Source of the DNA: Bacteroidota bacterium
Lineage (GTDB): Bacteria; Bacteroidota; Bacteroidia; Flavobacteriales_D; Crocinitomicaceae
Direction of reading: 5' to 3'
Length of the DNA stretch: 64,000 nt
Assembly (NCBI GenBank): GCA_024280295.1
Contig: JAJRQK010000029.1
Coordinates: 124,001-188,000 of the forward strand
The notes under the pieces were generated by a model. It was not told where the DNA came from, made no database searches, and was given only the letters and a program-made list of their open reading frames with translations. The translations under genes and the position numbers were made by a program. Of this stretch, positions 51,533 to 57,920 are shown in pieces. The number at the start of each line of letters is the position of its first letter. Position 1 is the stretch's first letter.

Positions 51533-52279
51533 ATGAAATTACTCGAAGATAAAGTTGTTCTTATTACTGGTGCCTCACGAGGAATTGGTAAATCTATCGC
51601 TGAAGCTTGCGTAAAACAAGGAGCAAAGGTTGCATTCACTTATTTATCCTCTGATGAGAAGGCGAAGGCACTTGAAGCTGCTCTTGCATCAGAAGGTGGT
51701 GTTGCAAAAGGATTTAAATCAGATGCGTCAAAGTTTGATCAAGCACAATCACTTGTTGATTCAGTAATTGAAGAATTTGGGCAGGTTGATGTTTTGGTGA
51801 ATAATGCAGGGATAACTAGGGACAACCTGTTGATGAGGATGACTGAGGAAGCTTGGGATGAAGTAATGAATACGAATTTAAAGTCTGTCTTCAATTTAAC
51901 AAAGGCAGTGATGCGACCAATGTTGAAAGCTCGTAAAGGTTCAATTATTAATATGTCATCTGTGGTTGGTGTTAGTGGTAATGCGGGACAGGCAAATTAT
52001 GCGGCTTCAAAAGCAGGATTGATTGGTTTTACTAAGTCGATTGCGCAAGAACTTGGATCACGAAGCATTCGATGTAATGCTATCGCACCAGGGTTTATCG
52101 AGACTGAAATGACAGCAACACTAGATCAAAAGGTAGTAGACGAATGGAGAGCAGCTATTCCCTTGAAACGAGGAGGCTCAACGCAAGATGTTGCTGATTT
52201 AACAGTTTTCTTAGCTTCAGATATGTCGACTTACATTACTGGACAGACCATTAATGTTTGTGGTGGGATGTTAATGTAG
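51533..52279 (+). CDS. fabG: 3-oxoacyl-[acyl-carrier-protein] reductase
   Basis: FabG reduces 3-oxoacyl-ACP with NADPH in fatty-acid synthesis. The 248-residue short-chain dehydrogenase has the cofactor motif TGASRGIGKSI, NNAG at residues 90-93, the catalytic triad S143, Y156 and K160 (SSVVGVSGNAGQANYAASKAG), and the FabG-type ending QTINVCGGMLM. It stands alone with a terminator. A partial -7 match (TATATTTA, 51510-51517) lies 15 bp before the ATG. Confidence 0.93.
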   Translation: MKLLEDKVVLITGASRGIGKSIAEACVKQGAKVAFTYLSSDEKAKALEAALASEGGVAKGFKSDASKFDQAQSLVDSVIEEFGQVDVLVNNAGITRDNLLMRMTEEAWDEVMNTNLKSVFNLTKAVMRPMLKARKGSIINMSSVVGVSGNAGQANYAASKAGLIGFTKSIAQELGSRSIRCNAIAPGFIETEMTATLDQKVVDEWRAAIPLKRGGSTQDVADLTVFLASDMSTYITGQTINVCGGMLM

Positions 52280-52299: not shown

Positions 52300-52329
52300 G
52301 TCATTGAGTGAGAATTCAATGGCTTTTTT
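52300..52329 (+). terminator. Terminator of fabG
   Basis: GTCATTGA pairs with TCAATGGC over 8 bp (one G-U) with an 8-nt loop, followed by six T that run to the end of the convergent ABC gene. Confidence 0.75.
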
Positions 52330-55300
52330 ATGCTTTCTTTTTCCGATTGAATAGATGCTGTGTTCCTTCAATTATTCTTCTCAACCAATCGAAGTAGAGC
52401 ATAATATATGTAAAGATTGAAATCACCCAAATAACAATAAGATTACTCCAATAGGTATCAACTCTTTGACCAAACATATATTTCTGTGGAGCATAAAAGT
52501 GGGAGTGAAGAAAACTGACCTCCTTAGGTAAATTATAAATAGACTCATCATTTTGATAAATTTCATCATTATCAATGATTAGTTTATGCTCCTCCATTTT
52601 ATTTGTAACTAGATTCATTAAGCTTTCATTAGAATATCTCTTCTGAATTTGAGCGTAATTCTTAAGCCCAATTGAGTCAATAACATGCTGAATTTGAGCA
52701 TTGTTATCGTTAATGGTCTTGTTGAACTGAACTGTAATTGTATCTAAGAAAGCATTCACTTTACTAAAACGACTCATAGAATATAAGCTGCCATTTTGAA
52801 TGGAATCAATGCAATCGATGCAATTTAAATTTCCCCAGTAGTTATCTTCTTTAGTAATTTCATTCACTAGAATGTTTTCGGCATGTTGAACAACTTTAGA
52901 CTCATCCCCCTTGGATCGAGTAATGATATCCATTTGTTTTCTGATTTCAGGAACCCAAAAATCTTTTTTCCACTTCGCTTGACTTTGTTCCATCTTCTGC
53001 ACGAAATAATGCTTTTCTAACTGATTATTACTTGCTTGCTCAACCGCTAAGGCTTCATACGCCCATCGCGAAACCATAATGTTTCCAATCCATGGAACTT
53101 TAGTCGCATTTGATACAGATGGGTGAAGTTTGTCAAATTGAACGATTACACCACTAAACAAAAGCTGTGGAATAATCAAGAGAGGAACTATAATATAAAT
53201 TACTTTTGCAGAATTAAATGCACTAGAAATGTTCAATCCAACTAAATTAGACAAGAATGAGGTTGAAAATAGGATCAACCAATATTCAAGGTACATTCCT
53301 TTTATTTCAAGAATAAAATTCCCAATTGTAACAAAAAATAGTGTCTGTATTCCTGAAATAGCAAAGAGTATGGCAAGTTTCGATAATAGATAACTACCTC
53401 TGGATAAATTTAGAAATCGCTCACGAGCGAGAATCTTTTTGTCTTTATTGATTTCTTCCGCAGCTACTGTGAGTCCTAAGAAAATCCCGACAATTATTGT
53501 CATAAAGATGTACTGAGGTATATTCTCATTATGGTAAAAACTATATTCTTGTTCACTCCCAATTATATTGAAGTACTTAATAAAGAATGCCAAAATCATA
53601 GCAAGTAGAGGAGCTACAAGTCCATTTACTGCCAAATATTGAGTATTAGAGACCTTGCTGAGGAAATCACGAATAAGATACGTTTTGAATTGTTGAAATT
53701 TCCCTGGTAATTCTGTATCCACTTCTGGAGCAACACTTTCAATTGATACTTCTCTTGGATCTTCATAATCTTGATACAATTTATGCCAATCCTCTGGACT
53801 CTTTTTTCGAGTTGCTGTTTCTATACCATATTCATCAACAACCTTAGCATCAATTATGTTGAATATTTGTTCAGGATTGACATTACCGCAAAGACTACAC
53901 TCTCTTTCTTGTGCATTTCCTTGGTAAGAGTATGTTTTGAAATGAACGAGAGCATTTAGTGGTATTCCGTCGTAAATTAAATGTCCGCCAACATCCATGA
54001 TCAACAAACGATCAAAGAGTTTGAAAATATTAGAAGATGGCTGATGTATTACCACGAAAACAAGTGTTCCTCTCAACGATAATTCTTTGAGCAAGTCCAT
54101 AATGTTTTCAGAGTCTCGACTGGAAAGACCAGAGGTTGGTTCATCTACGAATAGAATCTGTGGTTCGCGAATTAATTCTAGGGCAATATTTAATCGTTTA
54201 CGTTGGCCTCCAGAGATTACTTTTTCTAGTGGTGATCCAACTCTTAATGTACGAATTTCGTATAACCCAAGTGTGTTCAATAAACTCACAACCTTATGCG
54301 TCAATTGATGCTGGGAAAGTCCACCCATACTCAATTTTGCTGCAAAGTAGAGATTCTGGAATACTGTTAATTCTTCAATTAGGAGGTCACTTTGTGCAAC
54401 ATTACCAATCATTCCCTCAAGTTGTCCAGAGTCTTCATGGAGGCTAATCGAATTGATCTTCACAGAGCCAAATGTAGGTTTGACCTTTCCATTCATGATG
54501 TTCATCAAGGTTGTCTTTCCTGTCCCCGATCCTCCCATGATACCGATCATCGTTCCGCCATTGGTTGCGAAATTCAACTTCCGAATAGCAAGATTTCCAG
54601 CACCGAATTTGTGAATTACATTCGTAACTTCGAAAGATAGGTTCTCACCCTTATTTATGTCTGAAGCACGTGAAACTAAATCACTATAATATATCTGAGA
54701 ACTTTTTGCCGTACGAATTGTTGAGCCATTGCTAAATAGATGTGTCTTACTAGAAGAAACAATTTGACCGTTGATTAAGAGTTCATCCTTACCATAATAC
54801 TTGAAGAGTAGCGCTTTTACACTCTTAATATTGACGATGTGAATTGGAGCGTCAAGTCCATCAACTTCCGAATGTTTAGAAATACTTAGATGATCTACTG
54901 GTTCCTTGGTGTAGTATAGATGATTTTCACCATCAATTAATTTCTTGCCGTCAGATTCAATAAACAGGTGTAAATCTTCGTATTCCTCTTTACTGATATT
55001 AAAAGCATCAGCAGCTGTTTTAACAAAATCAAGTTCTTTTTCAGTTCGAAGATGATCAGAACTGATAAATTCGAAAATGCGGACAAGCACAATGACTTTT
55101 TGTCTCTGTGTAAGTTCTTCATTAATTTGAGAACAGATGCGAAGTACTTTAACAGCCTGAAGAGAAGTTCGTTTTCGGCCACCTTTTTTTGTGTAAAGTT
55201 TACCACGCGTTTGATTCAGGAAATCTTCAAATATGTTGAGATAACGTTTGACATCAGAAGAGCTCAATTCAGATTTTAGAAATCCCTCGATGATATTTCG

Positions 55301-55420
55301 CCCTTTGGTACTTTGTATTATTGGTACTGTAGGACCGTCATGGTCATCTTCTGGTACTTCATCAACCTTCGCAATAATTGCAAAGAGCTGCATTAGCGCA
55401 CGAAGAATGCGTTCACTCAT
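52328..55420 (-). CDS. TerB-like/FHA-like ABCG-type transporter (ATPase and permease in one chain)
   Basis: The 1030-residue protein joins four parts. Residues 1-170 are helical and resemble TerB-like domains (KVIVLVRIFEFISSDHLRTE). Residues 190-270 look FHA-like (DELLINGQIVSSSKTHLFSN). Residues 275-500 are an ABC ATPase with Walker A GGSGTGKTT (K302), signature SGGQRKR (403-409) and Walker B FVDEPTSG (D426, E427). The C-terminal half is an ABC2/ABCG permease with about six membrane segments and a long external loop. Cys pairs occur at C508/C511 (ECSLCGN, cytoplasmic) and C867/C870 (NCIDC, predicted external loop). Family known, substrate unknown. It is the last gene of a three-gene minus-strand operon. 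Confidence 0.87.
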   Translation of the reverse strand: MSERILRALMQLFAIIAKVDEVPEDDHDGPTVPIIQSTKGRNIIEGFLKSELSSSDVKRYLNIFEDFLNQTRGKLYTKKGGRKRTSLQAVKVLRICSQINEELTQRQKVIVLVRIFEFISSDHLRTEKELDFVKTAADAFNISKEEYEDLHLFIESDGKKLIDGENHLYYTKEPVDHLSISKHSEVDGLDAPIHIVNIKSVKALLFKYYGKDELLINGQIVSSSKTHLFSNGSTIRTAKSSQIYYSDLVSRASDINKGENLSFEVTNVIHKFGAGNLAIRKLNFATNGGTMIGIMGGSGTGKTTLMNIMNGKVKPTFGSVKINSISLHEDSGQLEGMIGNVAQSDLLIEELTVFQNLYFAAKLSMGGLSQHQLTHKVVSLLNTLGLYEIRTLRVGSPLEKVISGGQRKRLNIALELIREPQILFVDEPTSGLSSRDSENIMDLLKELSLRGTLVFVVIHQPSSNIFKLFDRLLIMDVGGHLIYDGIPLNALVHFKTYSYQGNAQERECSLCGNVNPEQIFNIIDAKVVDEYGIETATRKKSPEDWHKLYQDYEDPREVSIESVAPEVDTELPGKFQQFKTYLIRDFLSKVSNTQYLAVNGLVAPLLAMILAFFIKYFNIIGSEQEYSFYHNENIPQYIFMTIIVGIFLGLTVAAEEINKDKKILARERFLNLSRGSYLLSKLAILFAISGIQTLFFVTIGNFILEIKGMYLEYWLILFSTSFLSNLVGLNISSAFNSAKVIYIIVPLLIIPQLLFSGVIVQFDKLHPSVSNATKVPWIGNIMVSRWAYEALAVEQASNNQLEKHYFVQKMEQSQAKWKKDFWVPEIRKQMDIITRSKGDESKVVQHAENILVNEITKEDNYWGNLNCIDCIDSIQNGSLYSMSRFSKVNAFLDTITVQFNKTINDNNAQIQHVIDSIGLKNYAQIQKRYSNESLMNLVTNKMEEHKLIIDNDEIYQNDESIYNLPKEVSFLHSHFYAPQKYMFGQRVDTYWSNLIVIWVISIFTYIMLYFDWLRRIIEGTQHLFNRKKKA

Positions 55421-55440
55421 TTAATGAAACTTGAAGTAAT

Positions 55441-55863
55441 CTATTTCTGAAAGCCGATCATCATTACTACGCAACCTGTAACTTTCAAATCACGATCCAA
55501 CTCCGCCTCAATAGTGACAGGTAAAGATTCGTGAATTTTAAAATCCCAAAATGGGGCATTTCTGTAGTTCTTATTTGAGAAAAGTATGTGGCCTTCAGGA
55601 TCTTTGATCGTGAAAATCACATAGTCATCTTTCGAACCAGCAGATGCGGCAAGTCGATAAGTTGTGCCACCGTAGAACGTTGTTTCAAATTCGGCCTTCT
55701 CGCGGTCTAAAAACACAGTGTAAACCTGTCCATCCGATACGAAGTCAACTGGAGCGTCTTTTCTTAAAAGTGCTTCACATTCTTTGACAATTTCTTCACA
55801 GTTTTGCTGAGTTATTCCTGGAAAAGATAGAAAAGAGAGTATTATAATTAGAGAAAATTTCAT
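55441..55863 (-). CDS. Small exported protein, unknown function
   Basis: The 140-residue protein has a signal peptide (MKFSLIIILSFLSFPGITQQ) and a mostly beta mature part with two Cys near the start (NCEEIVKECEALL) and one near the end (VTGCVVMMIGFQK). TTYRLAASAGSKDDYVIFTI and FWDFKIHESLPVTIEAELD suggest a small beta-sandwich. No family recognised. It lies 5 bp after the upstream lipoprotein gene and 20 bp before the ABC transporter gene, so it probably works with that transporter. Confidence 0.78.
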   Translation of the reverse strand: MKFSLIIILSFLSFPGITQQNCEEIVKECEALLRKDAPVDFVSDGQVYTVFLDREKAEFETTFYGGTTYRLAASAGSKDDYVIFTIKDPEGHILFSNKNYRNAPFWDFKIHESLPVTIEAELDRDLKVTGCVVMMIGFQK

Positions 55864-55868
55864 TTCAA

Positions 55869-56765
55869 TTAAGCTTTAATAATGTTAGAGCGAATCTCGT
55901 TAATTTTTATTCTGATCAATTCCAAAATTTCAGCACTAACTTTCACGTCGAGGGTATGATGAAGTGTAGTGATATGATTTTCTTTATCAGTATCAGGAGC
56001 TGAATAGTTGTAATCTAAAATAACATCATCAAACAATACACGGAGTCCATCCAAGTCAGAAATCAAATCATCATTGCTGCCTCCTTTATTGTATGCTTCA
56101 AGAATTCCTATAATTGAATTTAGTGATTGTTTTTGTTCGCCAATTCGATTTAACATTTTCTCAGAAGGTTTCTGAGATTGCAAGGCACAAGCAAAATATA
56201 AAGATTCTATCCAACCACCTGCTAATACTAGAGCAGATGTTGGTTTTCTATTTGATTTTTTCAAGAAGTTATCCGCTTCCCTAAACGCATCGCTCATAAT
56301 TTGGACCATTGAATCTTGGTCGCTGTTATTTTGCTCAAATCGTTTCAAAAGATTAGCGTTGAATGCGCCGTCTAGTCCAAGTTGAGCAGTTAATTTTTCT
56401 ACGGCACCCAAATAACTCATTGTTACACCTTTCTGATCATATAGTGTTGAATAACCAAGATCAGTTCCGTAAATTCCAAGGTTCAATGCTTGTTGGTATT
56501 CAGAAACGTACTCAGTAACTCGAGAATCTTCGTTTAAAAGTGACTCATCAAACTCTAGATTGAGTTCTTTAATTAAGTAAGCTGTTTGAATGGGTGATGG
56601 AATGCTAAACAATTTACCATCAAAGACAGTGTTTAGAGAACTATTCGGATCAAATACTTCTGCGTCGATTTCATTTTTCGACTCCTCTGGCTCTGTAGTA
56701 CACGAAGAAGAAACTCCGATTAAAACAGTTGCAAATATCAATGATTTATATTGGTTACCTTTCAT
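55869..56765 (-). CDS. Lipoprotein, unknown function
   Basis: The start is placed at 56765 (MKGNQYKSLIFATVLIGVSSSC, lipidated Cys 22). The longer frame from 56816 would begin upstream of the promoter -7 element at 56804-56811, so it cannot be translated from that transcript. The 298-residue protein is mainly helical (LKRFEQNNSDQDSMVQIMSD, RIGEQKQSLNSIIGILEAYN) with no recognisable domain. First gene of the operon that continues to the small exported protein and the ABCG-type transporter. Confidence 0.78.
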   Translation of the reverse strand: MKGNQYKSLIFATVLIGVSSSCTTEPEESKNEIDAEVFDPNSSLNTVFDGKLFSIPSPIQTAYLIKELNLEFDESLLNEDSRVTEYVSEYQQALNLGIYGTDLGYSTLYDQKGVTMSYLGAVEKLTAQLGLDGAFNANLLKRFEQNNSDQDSMVQIMSDAFREADNFLKKSNRKPTSALVLAGGWIESLYFACALQSQKPSEKMLNRIGEQKQSLNSIIGILEAYNKGGSNDDLISDLDGLRVLFDDVILDYNYSAPDTDKENHITTLHHTLDVKVSAEILELIRIKINEIRSNIIKA

Positions 56766-56803
56766 TCTTTCGTTGAGTACGGTTTGTAGAGTTGTAAAAA
56801 TAA

Positions 56804-56811
56804 CAAAAATA
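56804..56811 (-). promoter_or_regulatory. -7 element of the lipoprotein/ABC operon
   Basis: TATTTTTG on the minus strand fits TANNTTTG. Its place, inside the longest open frame of the lipoprotein gene, decides the start codon at 56765. Confidence 0.55.
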
Positions 56812-56954: not shown

Positions 56955-57920
56955 ATGAATAGACGACCTCGGAGAAATAGAAAATCAAGCGCAATTCGCT
57001 CCATGGTGGAGGAAACTAAGTTAGGTACAGAAAATTTAATATACCCTCTATTTATTGAGGATGGTAAAGGTGTGAAGACAGAAATAAAATCGCTTCCAAA
57101 TAACTTTCGATGGTCACTTGATACTTTATTGATTGAGATGGATGAGTGCGTGAATTTAGGTCTTGATAAATTTGTCCTCTTTCCAGCTGTTTCTGAAAGT
57201 TTAAAGGATTCTGTGGCTTCTTACAGTTATGCCTCTGATAATTTTTACCTTGATGCCATTCACCAAATAAAAGATCGTTTTCCCAACATAGAGTTAATGA
57301 GCGATGTTGCTTTAGATCCCTATTCATCTGATGGGCATGATGGGCTTGTTAAGGGCGGGGAAATACTAAACGATGAAACACTTCCAATTCTAGCAAAGAT
57401 GTCGATTGCTCAAGCTCAAGCCGGAATTGACATCATTGGGCCCAGTGATATGATGGACGGGCGCGTTGGTTTTATTCGTGAATCACTTGATGCTGCAAAT
57501 TATAAGGATGTGAGCATAATGTCTTATTGCGCGAAGTATGCAAGTGCTTTTTATGGACCATTTAGAGATGCATTGGATTCAGCACCAAAGGCTGGAGATA
57601 AGAAATCGTATCAGATGAATCCAGCGAATAAGCGTGAAGCCTTAATTGAAGCTGAGTTAGATGTTCAAGAAGGTGCCGATATGTTGATGGTTAAGCCCGC
57701 AACGTTTTATTTGGATGTGATTCAGATGTTGAGAGAAAATTTCGATTTGCCAATTACTGCTTACAATGTAAGTGGTGAGTGTGCGATGGTTTATGCTGCC
57801 AGTGCTAATGGCTGGTTAGATTATGAGTCCGCAATGTTTGAAATGCTTCTTAGTATTCGTAGAGCTGGAGCGGATGGTATTTTGACTTATTTTGCCAAAG
57901 ATTTTGCTCGATTAACGTAA
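56955..57920 (+). CDS. hemB: Delta-aminolevulinic acid dehydratase (porphobilinogen synthase)
   Basis: HemB condenses two 5-aminolevulinate molecules to porphobilinogen in tetrapyrrole synthesis. The 321-residue protein has both active-site lysines, K194 in YCAKYASAFYGPFRDA and K247 in MLMVKPATFYLDV, the latter forming the Schiff base. At the metal site it reads DVALDPYSSDGHDG (117-130), with Ala, Asp and Asp where zinc enzymes have three Cys, so it belongs to the zinc-independent, aspartate-rich (Mg/K-responsive) class. Unusually, the first His of the HGH triplet is Asp here. The gene stands alone with its own -7 element. Confidence 0.96.
   Translation: MNRRPRRNRKSSAIRSMVEETKLGTENLIYPLFIEDGKGVKTEIKSLPNNFRWSLDTLLIEMDECVNLGLDKFVLFPAVSESLKDSVASYSYASDNFYLDAIHQIKDRFPNIELMSDVALDPYSSDGHDGLVKGGEILNDETLPILAKMSIAQAQAGIDIIGPSDMMDGRVGFIRESLDAANYKDVSIMSYCAKYASAFYGPFRDALDSAPKAGDKKSYQMNPANKREALIEAELDVQEGADMLMVKPATFYLDVIQMLRENFDLPITAYNVSGECAMVYAASANGWLDYESAMFEMLLSIRRAGADGILTYFAKDFARLT

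Follow-up and report, generated by a model that had tools for sequence, protein, structure and literature searches.

Phosphorylation switches of the SiaABC type drive biofilm signaling in bacteria other than those considered here. In Pseudomonas aeruginosa, SiaC is described as activating the diguanylate cyclase SiaD, with phosphorylation of SiaC at Thr68 hindering the binding (PMC8457831), and SiaABCD has been presented in a 2025 paper as a sensor of membrane perturbation (PMC12834913). Threonine phosphorylation has also been connected to an ABCG-type transporter, Rv1747, one of whose two FHA domains is described as having been shown to bind a phosphothreonine motif and whose own cargo is given as unproven (PMC5549992). 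The present analysis concerns a three-gene operon that encodes an ABCG-type half-transporter, denoted T, and two predicted exported proteins, P1 and P2, in a 64,000-nucleotide stretch of DNA (the window) from a Bacteroidota bacterium of the Crocinitomicaceae (GCA_024280295.1, contig JAJRQK010000029.1, positions 124,001 to 188,000). In our assessment, the evidence tilts modestly toward T being an inner-membrane ABCG-type exporter and the output of a SiaABC-type phosphorylation switch of the Bacteroidota. The basis is the conservation of the operon, the folds of structure models, gene linkage and co-occurrence of T with SiaB and SiaC, the near absence of GGDEF proteins and, in one clade, the location of T in the effector position after SiaC; we further infer a contact between SiaC and T, a direction of control and a type of substrate.

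The loci examined here share with SiaABCD a predicted SiaB-type kinase and a SiaC with an Asn-Thr phosphosite and, in the operon-type loci, a PP2C phosphatase and a gene in the effector position directly after siaC, as these features are described in PMC8457831, PMC7647112 and PMC12834913. The effector of SiaABCD is a diguanylate cyclase, whereas the effector position here is held by an ABCG transporter that has two exported proteins as partners; furthermore, the Sia genes and the T operon often lie apart, which is also the case in the genome of the window, and a SiaC-binding motif is unproven. Rv1747, with the kinase PknF, is described as having the same combination of an ABCG-type ATPase-permease, an FHA fold in front of it and a link to threonine phosphorylation, but T carries one degenerate FHA-like domain together with a TerB-like domain, is associated with a SiaB/SiaC switch rather than a Hanks kinase and is accompanied by P1 and P2. 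Eukaryotic ABCG half-transporters and PDR pumps, which are among the best PDB sequence matches of T, likewise have the ATPase first and an ABC2-type membrane domain in the same chain. Unlike these, T is bacterial, with a long outer loop, an N-terminal domain region and exported partners, and falls outside TIGR00955, the pigment precursor permease subfamily, scoring far under its cut-off (233.9 bits versus 736.35; E = 4e-69). A search of the literature available to us yielded no paper joining TerB, FHA and an ABC transporter, or DUF1987 and an ABC transporter; among the SiaB/SiaC/SiaD papers found, some mention both SiaC and an ABC transporter, and no link between the two is described in the titles or abstract openings of these.

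The three genes lie on the minus strand and are transcribed in the order P1, P2, T, with intergenic gaps of 5 bp (P1/P2) and 20 bp (P2/T) (Table 1). An earlier note on this DNA had proposed an operon in which a lipoprotein and a small Cys-containing exported protein precede T; this was borne out, with the start of P1 moved from near 56811 to the most likely ATG at 56765 (MKGNQYKS...), the column at which many homologs begin. T fits an ABCG-type ABC exporter, with an ATPase that contains the Walker A, Walker B and signature motifs ahead of an ABC2-type membrane domain in one chain (Pfam ABC_tran, 2e-26; ABC2_membrane, 9e-20) and hydrophobic segments near residues 596, 636, 682, 741 and 992. Such a protein would act as a homodimer of half-transporters in the inner membrane.

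The T-P1-P2 arrangement is far beyond chance. Of 140 non-redundant loci with a T of at least 950 amino acids, 112 have both P1 and P2 no farther than 3 kb from T, 5 have one partner in this range and 23 have neither; several of the loci with one or no partner end at contig edges. (Four duplicate loci and one T under 950 amino acids were dropped from this set and are included in the tallies over 145 rows given below.) The inner Cys pair of T is retained in 21 of the 23 loci without partners, so that homologs regularly lacking both the exported proteins and both Cys pairs, the pattern that the earlier note had named as contrary to its proposal, were not found. In the two exceptions (L094 and L095), PP2C is the sole neighbor of T among the scored partners. 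Twelve genomes whose T lacks a P1 in this range (11 with partnerless loci, plus L219) were searched for P1 homologs, and all 12 carry them elsewhere, 3 to 9 per genome; the genome of the window has one P1. Of seven extra P1 copies examined in five other genomes, one is beside another T and six, from four genomes (L269, L270, L272, L273, L274 and L275), are each followed by P2 without T within 1.5 kb on either side; P1-P2 is thus a pair in its own right.

In the operon-type T loci, the genes ahead of T include those for the Sia switch. Pfam identifies genes ahead of some T loci as SpoIIE/PP2C, DUF6272 (SiaB-like) and SiaC, and the order PP2C-SiaB-SiaC-T-P1-P2 was found in 7 of the 145 rows (5 plain and two with doubled SiaB or SiaC) and also in L234 and L235. 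A second form, P1-P2-T with a convergent SiaC-SiaB pair, accounts for 24 rows, with SiaC-T gaps mostly shorter than 150 bases, and recurs in records of Bacteroidales and Marinilabiliales; in 9 rows, convergent SiaC-SiaB accompanies a T that has neither P1 nor P2 nearby. P1-P2-T stands alone in 79 rows, T has none of the scored partners in 8, and the remainder are variants. Overall, 52 of the 140 loci have SiaB or SiaC no more than 3 kb from T. SiaC directly precedes T in 11 rows, which form one group with full local support in a FastTree tree of T rooted on L094/L095 (long branches were flagged by the tool); the T of the window falls in a group carrying P1-P2-T only. PP2C is present in the operon-type loci, and usually none is found by profile beside convergent SiaC-SiaB. 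The Asn-Thr of the phosphosite is kept in 50 of 51 T-adjacent SiaC proteins. DUF6272, the family of the SiaB-type kinases, is paired with SiaC in the genome of the window and in relatives, as judged from sequence; an ad hoc SiaB motif pattern, which 25 of 50 proteins fit, was not used for any conclusion.

In four T-less SiaC genomes of a phylum-wide sample, the gene after SiaB-SiaC encodes a GGDEF protein in two (L230 and L232), a histidine kinase of the HisKA type in one (L231) and a methyltransferase-like protein in the other (L233), and in three further loci of this kind, from genomes not searched for T, cyclase-like or kinase-like genes adjoin SiaC. In its operon-type loci, T thus stands where SiaC effectors stand elsewhere. 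The genome of the window also contains an intact SiaB-SiaC pair (L134, 7515-8482), whose SiaC has an N-T-S site that aligns to the solved Pseudomonas SiaC (6kko/7e6g); no PP2C was found beside this pair, at the locus itself, no genome-wide PP2C search having been made. The pair is flanked by genes that we take to be methyltransferase-like and CoaE-like. Homologous methyltransferase-like genes, together with ZIP-like genes, lie downstream of T in 15 of the compared loci, which suggests that the SiaB-SiaC pair and the T operon were once contiguous and have since split.

T and SiaC also co-occur across genomes. Among 396 Bacteroidia genomes (completeness filter, 90%), T is present in 190 and SiaC in 194; the two occur together in 180 genomes, T alone in 10, SiaC alone in 14 and neither in 192 (Fisher p = 4e-81, uncorrected for ancestry). 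Counted by genus, by hand from the same rows, 82 of 199 genera have both, 8 T only, 6 SiaC only and 103 neither, in line with the tallies of the tool (T, 90/199; SiaC, 88/199). In the phylum sample (148 genomes), full-length T was found in 4 genomes, all of which have SiaC, and SiaC in 8; two more T matches were weak and partial. Of the 396 class genomes, 8 have GGDEF proteins; among the 194 with SiaC, the number is 4, and all four also have T. A search of the genome of the window found none. In one relative (L103, G016:C20), T exists solely as fragments interrupted by stops, though SiaC is present in the same genome.

The N-terminal region of T was modeled (residues 1-268, 70 sequences; mean predicted local distance difference test [pLDDT] score, 85.8). 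A Pfam match to TerB at residues 82-150 is below the gathering score (21.8 versus 24.4 bits; E = 2.4e-4), and the model of residues 1-156 resembles 2h5n (PG1108; Z = 8.8, root mean square deviation [rmsd] of 3.7 Å, 115 aligned residues). Across the 145 rows, L9 and N100 are invariant, C96 is kept in 142 and F13 is nearly invariant. Pfam yielded no FHA sequence match in T; the model of residues about 145-255 resembles dozens of FHA chains (Z of about 6-7, rmsd mostly 2-4 Å, about 70-90 aligned residues), and FHA domains top the Foldseek list for the N-terminus (probability up to 1.0; best E = 0.02, none at or below 0.001). FHA chains fill both fold-search lists, and the modeled region has a predicted FHA beta-sandwich fold. 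Because the model matches 2h5n and the FHA chains, the TerB-like and FHA-like domains that had been proposed ahead of the ATPase-permease hold at the fold level.

Table 1. Positions in the window of the operon genes and of the domains and motifs predicted in T
Feature	Positions	Strand	Remark
T, 1030-amino-acid ABCG-type half-transporter, regulatory-looking N-terminal region	52328..55420	-	
T residues 1-156, TerB-like helical domain	54953..55420	-	Sub-threshold Pfam and fold match
T residues about 160-256, FHA-like beta domain, degenerate phosphothreonine motifs	54653..54943	-	
T residues 262-500, ABC ATPase; Walker A 296, SGGQ 403, Walker B 423, H-loop 458	53921..54637	-	
T residues 508/511, inner CxxC, cytosolic linker between ATPase and membrane domain	53888..53899	-	137/140 loci
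T residues 576-1010, ABC2-type membrane domain	52391..53695	-	Pfam PF01061 at 576-792; hydrophobic segments up to 1010
T residues 795-990, large predicted outer loop, length and sequence variable	52451..53038	-	Between last two hydrophobic segments
T residues 867/870, outer CxxC, between hydrophobic segments 741-759 and 992-1010	52811..52822	-	
P2, small exported protein, 140 amino acids, conserved Cys22 and Cys131	55441..55863	-	
P1, lipoprotein, mostly helical, with a lipobox-like Cys22 and the motif GGWxE	55869..56765	-	

Of the two Cys pairs in T, the outer was taken to lie where redox state or metal might be sensed. Conservation of the inner pair in homologs was confirmed. A CxxC anywhere in the outer loop occurs in 38 of the 140 loci and is not a feature of the family; an outer sensor was rejected as a family trait. 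A PDB search with residues 471-620, around the inner pair, gave no ABCG match, and, therefore, no equivalence is claimed to a linker Cys of eukaryotic ABCG proteins.

A SiaC-binding motif was also sought in T. The cyclases and kinases adjoining SiaC have K[IV/M]T[RK]I[GS]D[SG]TQ in common, which resembles the SiaD residues given in PMC8457831. T residues 85-102 weakly resemble K[IV]xRI[GS]DxxQ, and against a background of 1002 proteins, the site of the window scores in the top 4.9%; a motif is not claimed because the score is not significant across the family compared with the background. The stalk of the cyclase at L232, used as a PDB query, had no useful match.

Neither exported protein has a convincing match in Pfam, NCBIfam or the PDB, and weak Pfam and PDB profile matches of P2 were taken as chance. 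The lipobox-like C22 of P1 is invariant in an alignment of 42 rows and at least 90% conserved in one of 60 rows, and 81 of 118 P1 proteins conform to a strict lipobox pattern. The P1 model (pLDDT, 86.6) matched a mix of imelysin/EfeO-like, designed helical and unrelated proteins (best VIA-align Z = 7.3; best Foldseek E = 1.1). By eye, the N-terminus of P2 is signal peptide-like, and both of its Cys residues, C22 and C131, are kept in 57 of 57 sequences.

The surroundings of T and SiaC vary. In the window, the operon lies between genes that we take from their sequences to be HemB-like (56955-57920, upstream and divergent) and FabG-like (51533-52279, downstream and convergent), and among the compared loci, 29 have a homolog of the former near T and 23 a homolog of the latter. 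Upstream of T in convergent SiaC-SiaB loci are a small, presumably STAS-like gene (L187, L196 and L209) and a presumably HPt-like gene (L196 and L209), hinting at further phospho-switch inputs. What we take to be CheB- and CheR-like genes are found near the PP2C-SiaB-SiaC-T-P1-P2 operon in L234, L235 and L093. A second type of SiaC, with no SiaB adjacent, is encoded in the genome of the window (L135, 7193-7591, G000:C39), near genes presumed to be BadF/N-acetylglucosamine-kinase-like and lipoprotein-like; similar surroundings are found in L138, L140, L143 and L146. Finally, among genomes of 99 relatives, an ABC match is present in all and a real T in only part. L097, L098 and L102 harbor a different ABCG transporter without a TerB-like part, FHA-like at the N-terminus by sequence, with neighbors that we take to be FHA-, PP2C- or kinase-like, presumably closer to the Rv1747 type.

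In the mechanism that we propose, an envelope signal would shift the balance between the PP2C phosphatase and the SiaB kinase, and SiaC would lose its phosphate at the conserved Thr. Free SiaC would then engage T, most likely at the TerB/FHA-like N-terminal region, and this engagement would switch transport on or off, while P1 and P2 may cooperate with T outside, by taking up or passing on the substrate or by gating the pump. As substrate, a lipid, glycolipid or lipoprotein-like cargo of the envelope is probable, a guess that takes ABCG pumps and Rv1747 as analogs. Stated in full, namely, that in Bacteroidia the SiaABC switch has been rewired such that dephosphorylated SiaC directly binds and gates an ABC exporter, that the output is inner-membrane transport instead of transcription or a second messenger and that a dedicated lipoprotein and exported protein complete the pathway outside, the proposal is tentative, and we give it somewhat less than an even chance.

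A number of observations weigh against T as the output of the switch. The counts of T and SiaC are uncorrected for ancestry, and those based on PF09345 include the second SiaC type without SiaB (L135 and L143), which blurs the totals. In 88 of the 140 loci, neither SiaB nor SiaC comes within 3 kb of T, and in the genome of the window, they are on a different contig (C25). Ten of the 190 class genomes with T lack SiaC, and 14 of the 194 with SiaC lack T; no GGDEF protein was found in these 14 either, so that SiaC has other partners there. An adjacent SiaB-SiaC pair is present without a full T in at least six relatives (G005, G006, G010, G035, G039 and G098; three are less than 90% complete), DUF6272 alone does not follow T, being found in 91 of 99 relatives, and the gene after SiaC in L233 encodes no known effector. 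Across the family, the median motif score lies at 20% of the background, and residues 85-102 rank first in 31 of 143 T proteins. Much of this would fit an ordinary ABCG-type envelope exporter, T-P1-P2, that is linked to SiaB-SiaC through a shared program or neighborhood while the switch acts on another target, without direct control. The distance of SiaBC from T in the genome of the window, the genomes with T or SiaC alone, the SiaB-SiaC pairs without T, the unproven motif and the six loci with P1-P2 but no T nearby all speak for such an exporter, which nevertheless has to accommodate the effector position of T in the PP2C-SiaB-SiaC-T order and the regulatory-looking domains ahead of its ATPase. 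We consider it unlikely, albeit the most serious of the alternatives.

The flow could also be reversed, with T, P1 and P2 forming an envelope sensor that feeds SiaB/SiaC and the output lying elsewhere. Bce-type transporters act as sensing transporters; P1 and P2 are predicted to be outside the inner membrane, and the convergent loci place T beside SiaC-SiaB, usually with no PP2C by profile, so that T could give the input. However, the operon form already has a likely sensor in its PAS/GAF/SpoIIE PP2C protein (L087 and L234), which is why T is left as the output there, and reversed flow appears improbable. Least probable of all, and in our view quite remote, is that phosphothreonine is read by the FHA domain of T, while redox state or metal is sensed by the Cys pairs on both sides of the membrane. 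The earlier note had envisaged an arrangement of this kind, with the sensing of redox state or metal placed outside. It is consistent with the FHA fold, with the inner CxxC kept in 137 of 140 loci and with the precedent of Rv1747 in Mycobacterium tuberculosis, where control of an FHA-ABCG protein by a phosphothreonine protein is described (PMC5549992). The canonical FHA motifs are, however, mostly lost (GR in 5 and SxxH in 13 of 145 T proteins), and the outer CxxC is restricted to a minority of loci, which leaves the outer sensor without support. A link to phosphorylation inside the cell stands through the genomic association with SiaB, SiaC and PP2C and falls as a canonical FHA reader. Thus, the earlier interpretation is partly supported, being right in outline and not in its sensor details.

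SiaC is widespread in Bacteroidia, whereas GGDEF, the family of its known effector, is nearly absent. T-P1-P2 is a specific, testable candidate for its output in most SiaC genomes, 180 of 194 of which carry T. If T is indeed the output, membrane transport would join the outputs of partner-switch signaling, and P1 and P2 would gain a context.

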